Assembly: GCF_900475285.1 (NCBI RefSeq)
Contig: NZ_LS483370.1
Location: 3,052,001 to 3,116,000 of the forward strand
Source of the DNA: Pseudomonas taetrolens
Lineage (GTDB): Bacteria; Pseudomonadota; Gammaproteobacteria; Pseudomonadales; Pseudomonadaceae
DNA length: 64,000 bases
Direction: 5' to 3'
Shown: positions 1,218-4,934 of the stretch, piece by piece
Numbering within the stretch: the stretch's first letter is position 1
Layout of the letters: every line of letters begins with the position of its first letter
Position numbers and translations under genes: made by a program
Notes under the pieces: model-generated
The model's database searches: none
Seen by the model: only the letters and a program-made list of their open reading frames with translations
What the model was told of the DNA's origin: nothing

Positions 1218-1769
1218 TTACTTCTTCTTTTTCGGGGCGATGACCATAATCAGTTGGCGTCCTTCCATCTTAGGATGCTGTTCGACGGTTCCGTATTCAA
1301 CCAGGTCACCTTCAACCCGCTTCAACAGTTCCATACCCAGCTCCTGGTGGGCCATCTCACGACCGCGGAATCTTAACGATACCTTGGCCCTGTCCCCATC
1401 ACTCAGGAAACGTACCAGGTTGCGCAGTTTTACCTGGTAATCCCCTTCCTCCGTCCCTGGACGAAACTTGATTTCTTTAACTTGAATCTGTTTCTGGTTT
1501 TTCTTTGCAGCAGCAATCTGCTTCTTCTTTTCGAAGATCGATTTGCCGTAGTCCATCAGCTTACAAACTGGGGGTACTGCATCAGCGGAAATTTCCACCA
1601 AATCCAGTTTGGCCTCTTCAGCTTTAAGAAGCGCGTCTTCAATTGACACAATCCCAAGCTGCTCGCCTTCAGCTCCAATTAACCGAACCTCGCGTGCCGA
1701 GATATTCTCGTTGATCGGGGCCTTCGGTGCAGCTCGTTTATCTTGTCTCATTTCACGCTTAATAATAAT
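1218..1769 (-). CDS. infC: Translation initiation factor IF-3 (ATT start)
   Basis: IF-3 binds the 30S subunit, keeps 50S away and checks the start codon. From the ATG at 1751 the reading frame gives only 177 residues. The family N-terminus in Pseudomonas is M-x-IKREMR, and that sequence lies just upstream, encoded as ATT ATT ATT AAG CGT GAA ATG. I therefore place the start at an ATT codon: 1769 gives 183 residues, the usual Pseudomonas length. The first ATT overlaps the thrS TAA stop by one base. GGAG (1775-1772) is only 2 nt from the first ATT but 5 and 8 nt from the second (1766) and third (1763), so the exact start among the three is open. Rare ATT starts permit IF-3 autorepression in E. 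coli. Confidence 0.95.
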
Positions 1770-3691
1770 TACTCCGAATCATGGCGACCACGCCGGGAAA
1801 CCGCTTGTGCGAGGAATTCAGCGAATTGCGCGACGGGCATCGAGCCCAAGTCAGCACCTTCACGTGTACGCACAGCGACAGTCTGCATCTCGACTTCCCG
1901 ATCTCCGATAACCAAGAGATAAGGAACCTTGAGCAAAGTATGCTCGCGGATTTTAAAGCCGATCTTTTCATTTCTCAAGTCAGACTTGGCACGAAATCCG
2001 CTCTGATTGAGAGTTTTTTCAACTTCAAGGGCAAAATCTGCCTGTTTGTCAGTGATATTCATGATCACTGCCTGGGTTGGCGCCAGCCACGCAGGGAATG
2101 CACCTTCATAGTGCTCGATCAGAATACCGACAAAGCGCTCGAACGATCCGAGGATCGCACGGTGCAGCATAACGGGATGCTTGCGGCTGTTGTCTTCGGA
2201 CACATATTCTGCGCCAAGACGGATCGGCAGGTTGAAATCGAGCTGTAAGGTACCACATTGCCACACTCGACCCAGACAATCTTTCAGAGAAAATTCAATC
2301 TTGGGCCCGTAAAAGGCACCTTCACCCGGCTGCAGGTCATAGGCCAGACCCGCGCTATCAAGGGCTGAGGCAAGCGCACTTTCGGCGCGATCCCACAATT
2401 CATCGGAACCCACACGCTTCTCGGGACGCGTCGACAGCTTGAGCTCGATATCCTTGAAACCGAAGTCTGCATAGACATCCAGGGTCAGCTTGATGAACGC
2501 TGCGGACTCGGCCTGCATCTGCTCTTCAGTACAGAAGATATGGGCGTCATCCTGGGTAAAGGCACGCACACGCATGATGCCGTGCAGAGCACCCGACGGC
2601 TCATTACGGTGACAGGCACCAAACTCGGCCAGGCGCATCGGCAGTTCACGGTAGCTTTTCAGCCCCTGATTGAACACTTGCACGTGGCAAGGGCAGTTCA
2701 TCGGCTTGATCGCGTAATCGCGGCTCTCCGACTCAGTGGTGAACATGTTTTCAGCGTAGTTGGCCCAGTGCCCGGACTTTTCCCACAGGCTGCGGTCGAC
2801 GACTTGAGGGGTCTTGATCTCAAGATAGCCGTTCTCGCGCTGGATCTTGCGCATGTATTGCTCAAGAACCTGGTAAAGCGTCCAGCCATTCGGATGCCAG
2901 AACACCATGCCCGGCGCTTCTTCCTGGGTGTGGAACAGGCCAAGTCGCTTGCCGATTTTACGGTGATCACGCTTCTCGGCTTCTTCAATACGCAGGACAT
3001 AAGCTGCCAGCTGCTTCTTATCAGCCCAGGCCGTGCCATAGATACGCTGCAATTGCTCGTTCTTGGCATCGCCACGCCAGTAGGCGCCCGACAGCTTGGT
3101 CAGCTTGAACGATTTCAGGAAACGCGTATTCGGGACGTGAGGCCCGCGGCACATGTCGACGTATTCTTCATGGAAGTACAGGCCCATGGCCTGTTCGTTC
3201 GGCATGTCTTCGACCAGGCGCAGCTTGTAGTCTTCGCCCCGAGCAGCAAACAGCTCAATTACTTCAGCACGCGGCGTCACCTTCTTGATGACGTCGTAGT
3301 CTTTTTCGATCAACTGTTGCATGCGCTGTTCGATAGCCGCCATGTCATCCGGAGTAAACGGACGCTCGTAGGCTATATCGTAATAAAAGCCTTCATCAAT
3401 GACAGGGCCGATCACCATCTTGGCAGTTGGATACAACTGCTTGACCGCATGACCGACCAAGTGGGCACAAGAGTGACGAATGATTTCCAGCCCCTCTTCA
3501 TCCTTGGGCGTGATGATTTGCAGCGTGGCGTCATTTTCGATCAGGTCACAGGCATCAACCAGCTTGCCGTTGACCTTGCCGGCCACAGTGGCCTTGGCCA
3601 GACCTGCACCAATGGATGCGGCGACCTCGGCAACGGATACCGGGTGATCGAATGAGCGTTGACTGCCGTCGGGAAGAGTAATAGTTGGCAT
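1769..3691 (-). CDS. thrS: Threonyl-tRNA synthetase
   Basis: Class II synthetase that charges tRNA-Thr and edits Ser-tRNA-Thr. The 640 residues show, in order, the TGS domain ([15 protein letters not shown], about 1-62), the editing domain with [16 protein letters not shown] and CRGPHVP, the catalytic core ([10 protein letters not shown] with the zinc-binding Cys, [19 protein letters not shown] as motif 2, [15 protein letters not shown] motif 3) and the C-terminal anticodon-binding domain. I use the ATG at 3691 rather than an upstream one at 3724 because MPTITLPDG is the family N-terminus and AGGAGG (3701-3696) lies 4-5 nt before it. First gene of the cluster; its leader carries two anticodon-arm-like hairpins. 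Confidence 0.98.
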
Positions 3692-3710
3692 GGCGCCTCC
3701 TCTCCTAGTG

Positions 3711-3731
3711 GTGACCCCTACCAAAGGTCAC
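3711..3731 (-). promoter_or_regulatory. thrS leader hairpin resembling the tRNA-Thr(GGU) anticodon arm
   Basis: Read on the minus strand, GUGACCU pairs with GGGUCAC (6 Watson-Crick pairs plus one U-G) around a 7-nt loop UUGGUAG. The loop has U at the position of tRNA U33, GGU at the anticodon positions 34-36 and A at 37. The hairpin ends about 9 nt before the AGGAGG ribosome binding site of thrS. In E. coli, ThrRS represses its own mRNA by binding such anticodon mimics. Function here is inferred. Confidence 0.6.
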
Positions 3732-4055
3732 GTGGGTTGGGATGAGCCAGTACGTGATTCGGTGGTACGCCTGCCTCACAGTGGCAGGAGCCTTGCGGCC
3801 AACCGGAAACCGAACCAGAGTGACTGGAGTTCAATTCAAAAAGGTTAATGGCTCTGCCTCGCGACTCACACCGCGAATCGACAGAAAAATGCCAAGGGCG
3901 GCATGCTATCACAGATGTAGCCCCCCTGCCCCGCCGCCGGCGCCTCATCCAGAAAAACCGACGGTTTTTTGCAAAATGGTGAACTTGAGCTGCACTTACC
4001 CCCTCATATACTCAGTGAAACACTCTCGGTTTTAACGCTTAAGAAGGAGCATCAC
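3732..4055. other. Intergenic region between divergent thrS and the small secreted-protein gene
   Basis: Apart from the second leader hairpin (3770-3788), this stretch should hold the thrS promoter on the minus strand and the promoter of the 4056 gene on the plus strand. I see no unambiguous -35/-10 pair. An open frame from 3969 only extends the downstream gene in frame and lacks a ribosome binding site. Confidence 0.5.
3770..3788 (-). promoter_or_regulatory. Second thrS leader hairpin with a UGU-containing 7-nt loop
   Basis: On the minus strand CCUGCC pairs perfectly with GGCAGG around the 7-nt loop ACUGUGA. UGU, an anticodon of tRNA-Thr, occupies loop positions 3-5, keeping the G35-U36 pair that ThrRS reads. 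It lies 38 nt upstream of the GGU hairpin, the layout expected for the two anticodon-like domains of the E. coli thrS operator. The base at position 33 is C rather than U, which weakens the mimicry. Confidence 0.45.
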
Positions 4056-4358
4056 ATGCGCATGACTCACCTGTTCGCTTTCGCAGCACCTCTGGCTCTG
4101 CTGCTGCCACTGACTGCCCATGCCGATAATTGGCCGGCAGGCACCAAGAACGAGTACATGAAGGATTGCGTGGCTGCAGCCAGCAAAAGCATTGATCAGA
4201 AAACCGCCACTCAGCATTGCGAGTGCGGCGCAAACAAGCTGAATGAAAACTTCACCAGCGCTGAGATCGAAGCACTGATGAGCAAGACAAAACAACCGAG
4301 TGCCGAGCTTAGAACCAAGGCAATGAATGCAATTCAAGGCTGCGTGGTGAAGAAATAG
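4056..4358 (+). CDS. Small secreted cysteine-containing protein, unknown function
   Basis: A 100-residue protein that I do not recognise. MRMTHLFAFAAPLALLLPLTAHA is a clear signal peptide with cleavage after AHA, so the mature protein (about 77 residues, starting DNWPAGTKNEY) should be periplasmic. It holds four cysteines (KDCVAAASK, QHCECG, QGCVVKK), suggesting two disulfides. The start at 4056 has AAGAAGGAG 7 nt upstream; the in-frame ATG at 3969 has none and would bury the signal peptide. Single gene, divergent from thrS. Confidence 0.8.
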   Translation: MRMTHLFAFAAPLALLLPLTAHADNWPAGTKNEYMKDCVAAASKSIDQKTATQHCECGANKLNENFTSAEIEALMSKTKQPSAELRTKAMNAIQGCVVKK

Positions 4359-4582: not shown

Positions 4583-4651
4583 AGCCAAGTGTGCCCAGTT
4601 GGCCTGAGCAGCACAGTACTACTGAAAATATAAGTTTCTTGGAGATACACC

Positions 4652-4864
4652 ATGTCTAATCGCCAAACCGGCACCGTAAAATGGTTCAACGATGAAAAAG
4701 GCTTCGGCTTCATCACTCCTCAAGGTGGCGGTGACGACCTGTTCGTACACTTCAAAGCTATCGAAAGCGACGGTTTCAAAAGCCTGAAAGAAGGCCAGAC
4801 TGTTTCCTTCGTGGCTGAGAAAGGCCAAAAGGGTATGCAAGCTGCACAGGTTCGTCCGGAGTAA
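4652..4864 (+). CDS. Cold-shock protein, CspA family
   Basis: Single-stranded RNA/DNA chaperone of 70 residues, one cold-shock domain and nothing else. RNP1 is KGFGFITP (about 16-23), RNP2 is DLFVHF (about 29-34), and the N-terminal [11 protein letters not shown] is typical. CTTGGAGA precedes the ATG by about 8 nt. Monocistronic: TATAAT-type promoter upstream, strong bidirectional terminator directly downstream. Which Pseudomonas paralogue this is (CapB, CspD or another) cannot be settled from sequence alone, though the [18 protein letters not shown] core resembles CapB/CspA. Confidence 0.96.
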
Positions 4865-4878
4865 ATCTCCCGCGAACA

Positions 4879-4910
4879 AAAAAACCCCGTCCATGTGACG
4901 GGGTTTTTTA
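4879..4910. terminator. Bidirectional intrinsic terminator
   Basis: AAACCCCGTC and GACGGGGTTT pair around CATGT, with an A-run on the left and a T-run on the right. It serves the cold-shock gene on the plus strand and the convergent I78-type lipoprotein gene on the minus strand. Confidence 0.9.
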
Positions 4911-4934
4911 TGCCTGAAACAACGCTATACGCGC

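Follow-up and report, generated by a model that had tools for sequence, protein, structure and literature searches.

Does the thrS gene of Pseudomonas taetrolens, which encodes threonyl-tRNA synthetase (ThrRS), carry a leader RNA through which the enzyme controls its own synthesis? ThrRS is a dimer which reads the bases G35 and U36 of tRNA-Thr, and tRNA-Thr competes with the operator. For E. coli, three papers (PMC9976931, PMC3858243, PMC6542539) describe that ThrRS attaches to anticodon-like domains of its own leader and keeps the 30S subunit from binding. Control passes to MetRS once the thrS loop is changed to the methionine anticodon. A sequence-only reading of the window, i.e., the whole stretch of 64 kb analyzed here, had proposed the same autoregulation for P. 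taetrolens. Conservation, covariation and the correspondence of the hairpin H2 to an E. coli hairpin now support this proposal. The 5' leader of thrS is very probably a translational operator for ThrRS, with ThrRS binding and repression postulated by analogy with E. coli. As its two hairpins imitate the part of tRNA-Thr that is read by ThrRS, the enzyme is likely to repress its own synthesis.

The features of the locus are summarized in Table 1. The two hairpins with 7-nt loops which the sequence-only reading had placed on the thrS transcript were exact in coordinates, stems and loops. Residues 1-635 of the ThrRS encoded in the window align with the ThrRS chain 1qf6, a full-length match to the E. 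coli enzyme. The residues aligned with E600 and R609 of E. coli ThrRS, which we take to be anticodon contacts, are identical in the window ThrRS. The linker (3746-3732, minus strand) is conserved in the genus and was partly paired in the single-sequence prediction. Its motif CUCAUCC could pair with the Shine-Dalgarno (SD) sequence (GGAGAG; window 3746-3696, minus strand); both are highly conserved in the genus and offer no covariation by which to judge the pairing.

Table 1. Features of the thrS locus and of related leaders. Positions refer to the window; L numbers denote loci of other genomes.
Feature	Position	Strand	Remarks
thrS CDS	1769..3691	-	640 aa, ATG at 3691; ORF list starts from an upstream TTG
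SD region AGGAGAGGAGG	3696..3706	-	SD also in 36 Pseudomonas leaders
H2, anticodon-arm mimic on the RBS side	3711..3731	-	GTGACCT-TTGGTAG-GGGTCAC (3731-3711); 7-bp stem, loop UUGGUAG, GGU at 34-36
Conserved linker CUCAUCCCAACCCAC, junction to H2	3732..3746	-	leader alignments
P1 3' strand ACUGG	3747..3751	-	little variation, so covariation gives no proof
P2 3' strand ACCGAAUC	3756..3763	-	covariation, permutation test
H1, upstream anticodon-arm mimic	3770..3788	-	CCTGCC-ACTGTGA-GGCAGG (3788-3770); 6-bp stem, loop ACUGUGA, UGU at 34-36
P3 small hairpin GGCC-GCAA-GGCU, abuts H1	3789..3800	-	alignments A3, A4
P2 5' strand GGUUCGGU	3809..3816	-	covariation, permutation test
P1 5' strand CCAGU, upstream limit of the conserved leader domain	3823..3827	-	alignments, conservation profile
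Promoter -10-like hexamer TAGCAT, within CATCTGTGATAGCAT	3903..3908	-	recurring pattern in upstream regions of relatives
Tandem-mimic thrS leaders	L454, L456-L465, L467, L468		several genera, one family of the order

Searching both strands of the 64-kb window for hairpins with a 7-nt loop, at least 6 pairs and at most 1 G-U pair, 176 were found. GU stood at the loop positions 35-36 in 11 of them, including H1 and H2, which lie 58 nt apart. A third member of the 11 (window 3880-3862, minus strand) was seen in this genome alone among 168 unique upstream regions and was taken as chance. RNA folding, which the sequence-only reading had suggested as a check, did not favor the leader: single-sequence energies were no better than those of shuffles (z -0.32 and -0.25). 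In the single-sequence ensemble the pairing probability was about 0.43 for H1 and about 0.93 for H2. Hence, the support for both hairpins is comparative, not energetic.

For H2, a covariance model (R1) was built from 18 leaders including that of E. coli. R1 matched all 199 sampled Pseudomonas genomes, 92 of 274 genomes of the class (the window's own included) and, in a phylum sample of 299 whose number of genomes outside the class is not stated, 37 genomes, all of the same class or nearer; as the model was built from GU loops, these counts carry no test of GU. To look at the association with thrS, 70 R1 loci of the class were taken, 5 incomplete ones left out, and all 65 parsed, one of them the window's, lie directly before a ThrRS-like start. 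In the genus 194 of the 199 genomes had one R1 match and 5 had two; in the class two matches occurred in 3 of 274. The extra matches were considered as other target genes and rejected; read by eye, they do not lie before thrS, most look coding, and all were taken as chance. For G090, one of its two matches is thrS itself. Before the starts of four ThrRS paralogue genes (L054, L059, L060, L061) no GU hairpin was found by a strict and then a looser search; the strict one also missed the hairpins of two orthologues, L053 and L062, and for this reason the looser criteria of the orthologue test were re-applied.

An orthology-only test used thrS orthologues from 57 genomes, picked without looking at their leaders. 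Between -75 and -14, hairpins were required to have a 7-nt loop and 6 or more of 7 pairs. GU stood at 35-36 in 54 of 59 such hairpins; outside the genus this held for 18 of 23 hairpins and 17 of 21 leaders. Four orthologues (L042, L055, L056, L058) fail this hairpin test; in L056 a comparable hairpin containing a mismatch is visible by eye. Both sides change at 3 of the 7 pairs of the H2 stem (6 cells versus 0.8 in shuffles). Position 34 of the H2 loop is G, C, A or U across relatives. Compared to the anticodon arm of the tRNA-Thr(GGU) of this genome, the H2 arm is identical at 13 of 17 positions, and at 6 of 7 in the loop.

The strongest evidence came from the loop of H1, where G35 and U36 are near-invariant and no other loop base is held. 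The genus set of 85 loci from the genus and one near genus gave 82 parsed loci and 68 unique leaders. An H1 stem pattern which did not ask for GU was fitted by 67 of the 68 leaders, and GU was present in all 67; the remaining leader and the three unparsed loci have GU by eye. A3 is a MAFFT alignment, not fitted to the model, of 52 diverse sequences chosen among 67 unique leaders, and its loop was unselected. G35 and U36 were found in 52 of 52, with three or four bases at each of the other five loop positions. The family set comprised 160 loci, 157 of them anchored, and 134 unique domains. Here, again with the loop unselected, the longest hairpin with a 7-nt loop and at most one G-U pair carries GU in 121 of 124 domains, and 10 of the 134 have no such hairpin. 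When every hairpin with 5 or more pairs in the family domains was counted, 123 of 141 had GU; among hairpins with 6 or more pairs in the 150 nt preceding the domain, this was true of 1 of 25. A strict GU loop is present in 123 of the 134 unique domains, and by our reading 8 more carry it on a stem that contains one mismatch or two G-U pairs. In the three domains L240, L242 and L259, read in the same way, the H1 GU loop is absent, while the P1 anchors and H2 are kept; these represent natural one-arm leaders.

The sequence-only reading had further held that two different threonine anticodons are imitated. In the window the loops indeed carry GGU and UGU, which are the only tRNA-Thr anticodons among the 63 tRNA matches of this genome. 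However, position 34 of H1 is U, C, A or G in relatives. With position 34 drifting and G35/U36 kept, two different anticodons are not the conserved feature, and the GGU/UGU pairing of the two loops was probably not selected.

We considered whether H2 might be the only ThrRS site, the H1 junction being a separate RNA (a scaffold or another sensor) which resembles an anticodon arm by chance. This would fit with a junction found in one family only, with the 3 of 134 unique domains that have H2 and no GU loop, and with the lower stability of H1 compared to H2 in the single-sequence ensemble. Outside the loop core H1 is also unlike the genome's own tRNA-Thr(UGU) arm, with agreement at 4 of 17 positions and 4 of 7 in the loop. 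Nevertheless, we regard this explanation as improbable. GU is the identity pair of ThrRS, which a loop of other origin would not be expected to carry, yet it was kept in all A3 sequences, with the loop unselected and its other five positions varying, and in 121 of 124 domains family-wide. Extra GU hairpins occur in some other lineages too.

The domain around H1, which we read as the second arm of the operator, is closed by P2 and carries the small hairpin P3. Of 29 pairs in the first alignment (A1), a single one changes on both sides, and 497 of 500 shuffles gave at least as many. In A3, 7 of 25 pairs do so (21 cells versus 8.8 shuffled). For A4 (56 sequences), which was fitted to the model, the figure is 14 of 22 pairs (134 cells versus 33.5 shuffled). 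The H1 stem shows one-sided changes only in A3, and double changes, at 3 of 6 pairs, in A4 only. For P2, the arms of 56 diverse domains were taken at set distances inward from the P1 anchors. The native arms gave -15.2 kcal/mol versus -11.39 (sd 0.38) for permuted ones, and 0 of 10000 permutations was as low. P1 (CCAGU/ACUGG) showed no covariation in the alignments; it hardly varies and is therefore unproven. A local hairpin CCAG/CUGG was tried in its place and had 88.3% of its cells paired, also without covariation, versus 95.8% for P1 in A3; neither is proven. The idea that the junction forms a complete tRNA cloverleaf was dropped, most leaders having by eye no equivalent of the T-arm. Loops and stems of both hairpins, whose conservation and covariation in other Pseudomonas leaders the sequence-only reading had named as a check, are thus kept and covary across Pseudomonas and the family.

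A covariance model of the Pseudomonadaceae junction (R2) matched 121 of 148 genomes and 15 of 19 genera in the family sample, with 27 genomes missed. In the order sample 10 of 244 genomes matched, all of them from the own family. Every matching genome of the order and family samples had a single R2 match. Of the 27 R2-negative family genomes 10 were rechecked, and 8 of these matched R1 with an E of 0.05 or better. In several of the R2-negative family leaders, for instance L258 and L260, GU loops on other stems were seen by eye.

The same data bear on the view that the hairpins act without ThrRS, via RNA stability or as a ribosomal standby site, their GU loops reflecting shared ancestry only. 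Linker and SD are conserved, and one paper describes an S1-dependent docking site in the E. coli thrS leader (PMC3858243), both of which would suit such a role. We give it very little probability, as the H1 loop bases besides G35-U36 vary within the same ancestry and the stems were rebuilt family-wide by compensatory change.

For an operator acting on translation, both hairpins have to be part of the transcript, and the sequence-only reading had named a start downstream of them as evidence against its proposal. Instead, both are preceded by a promoter-like element. In 99 upstream regions conservation climbs from about 0.35 to 0.91 at CCAGT. Of 98 regions, 91 had the hexamer [TA]AG[CG]AT ahead of the leader domain (versus 8.8 in shuffles), and it stood in two contexts in 33 and 40 of the 98 (versus 0.0 in shuffles); we are aware that these patterns were read off the very sequences counted. 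A T-run precedes the hexamer in 22 of 98 regions. A strict consensus promoter scan found none on the thrS strand, and a plain -35/-10 consensus gave a slight excess upstream of the domain (6.80 versus 6.08 in shuffles). The mechanical ORF list contains a divergent short ORF on the opposite strand at 3969-4358; the thrS transcript therefore most likely begins between this ORF and thrS. Taken from sequence patterns, this points to a transcript start upstream of both hairpins. That thrS might instead be under transcription attenuation, or be governed by a leader peptide or a T-box, as a long structured leader before a tRNA synthetase gene could suggest, has scarcely any probability, since a scan of 3500-4200 reported one terminator-like site (3904-3889) and none between H1 and the start codon, the T-box is absent from the Rfam matches (the best weak one, E 2.2, being another family), and the leader ORF on the minus strand (3718-3948, from a list of ORFs of 60 aa or more) has no threonine run.

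For the ThrRS operator we propose the following course of events by analogy with E. coli. Each hairpin would offer an anticodon-like loop that carries G35 and U36. With ThrRS in excess of tRNA-Thr, the dimer would bind H2, beside the SD, and also H1, held in place by the junction, and would bridge the two. Contact would be made via the anticodon-binding domains of ThrRS, and the ribosome would be kept off. tRNA-Thr would compete for the same ThrRS surface and so relieve repression.

Comparing this leader with the E. coli thrS operator, the same gene carries the element in the 5' leader upstream of the SD. The E. coli hairpin (GTGATCT-TTCGTGT-GGGTCAC) has its loop at -35, the Pseudomonas H2 loop is at -33, the stems align and both loops read N-G-U. 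Judged from this alignment, H2 corresponds to the start-codon-side hairpin of E. coli (domain 2). Both leaders also have a second upstream loop with UGU, and H1 corresponds in its role to the E. coli domain 4, with a different architecture: the upstream element of E. coli is a hairpin with an 8-nt loop (AUUUGUUG), while H1 is embedded in a multi-helix junction. Applied to the E. coli locus with filters off, R2 gave no match in the leader and a best score of 4.3 bits elsewhere; the two upstream elements may still share a remote origin. E. coli has a U-rich linker and an SD termed weak in one paper (PMC3858243), in contrast to the C-rich linker and longer SD of Pseudomonas. In the E. coli operator the stretch joining the two arms (domain 3) is unpaired and serves the ribosome. 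In yeast, according to two papers (PMC9976931, PMC6542539), AspRS and HisRS likewise bind their own mRNA through an anticodon-like element. These systems are eukaryotic, concern other synthetases and were likened by description. A T-box is a leader RNA before a synthetase gene which senses tRNA. The Pseudomonas thrS leader, in contrast, imitates tRNA, and the Rfam scans gave no T-box match.

The proposed mechanism is already known from the E. coli thrS operator. Two things are new with respect to the searched papers and Rfam: the junction of the Pseudomonadaceae and the tandem mimics of a related family. No paper on the Pseudomonas thrS leader was found in the open-licence PMC literature. Scanning the window's thrS leader with Rfam 15, nothing reached the gathering score and one weak match (E 2.2) appeared at a relaxed threshold; the E. 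coli thrS leader gave no match in the Rfam scan either. The analysis extends E. coli thrS control to Pseudomonas, with natural variation showing that in the H1 loop the bases read by ThrRS alone are held. It also adds a covarying RNA domain without an Rfam 15 family match in the scans, and offers a comparative system for how a synthetase operator gains or rebuilds a second binding arm.

In the related family of the same order, R1 matched twice in 11 of 25 genomes. Two or three tandem GU hairpins were counted strictly in 13 of 17 leaders read, their loci having been chosen by R1. From the 20 loci given to this count 18 leaders were parsed, with GU in 36 of 40 hairpins; as R1 chose the loci, about one GU hairpin per leader is present by selection. 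A similar tandem was seen by eye in L057, and L046 has a perfect 6-bp hairpin upstream with the loop AUUGUAG. A second mimic upstream of H2 was searched for in 65 leaders of the class set and 21 of the order set; 77 of these 86 leaders gave no second GU hairpin with a 7-nt loop. The second arm is therefore not universal or not of simple-hairpin form. With stems of at least 6 pairs GU occurred in 9 of 37 hairpins versus a GT background of 6.5%. This search was diluted, 80 of 135 hairpins being GA and AC loops from tRNA genes upstream of thrS.

We give an even chance to the view that H2 is one ancestral gammaproteobacterial mimic, to which second or third ThrRS sites were added in a different form per lineage, i.e., the junction in Pseudomonadaceae, tandem hairpins in another family and the long hairpin in E. 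coli, and that the Pseudomonadaceae linker may also pair with the SD. If true, the lineage-specific arms would represent repeated evolution of a multivalent tRNA mimic fitting a dimeric synthetase.

Two further observations were made. In five loci outside the genus (L039, L040, L053, L056, L264) a tRNA gene lies close upstream of thrS, its anticodon region GAC being by eye of the tRNA-Val type. In the window, 4590-4911 on the plus strand matches the cspA thermoregulator RNA (RF01766) with 79.3 bits, barely above the cut-off of 78 bits, and the ORF inside this match (4652-4864) resembles a cold-shock protein.
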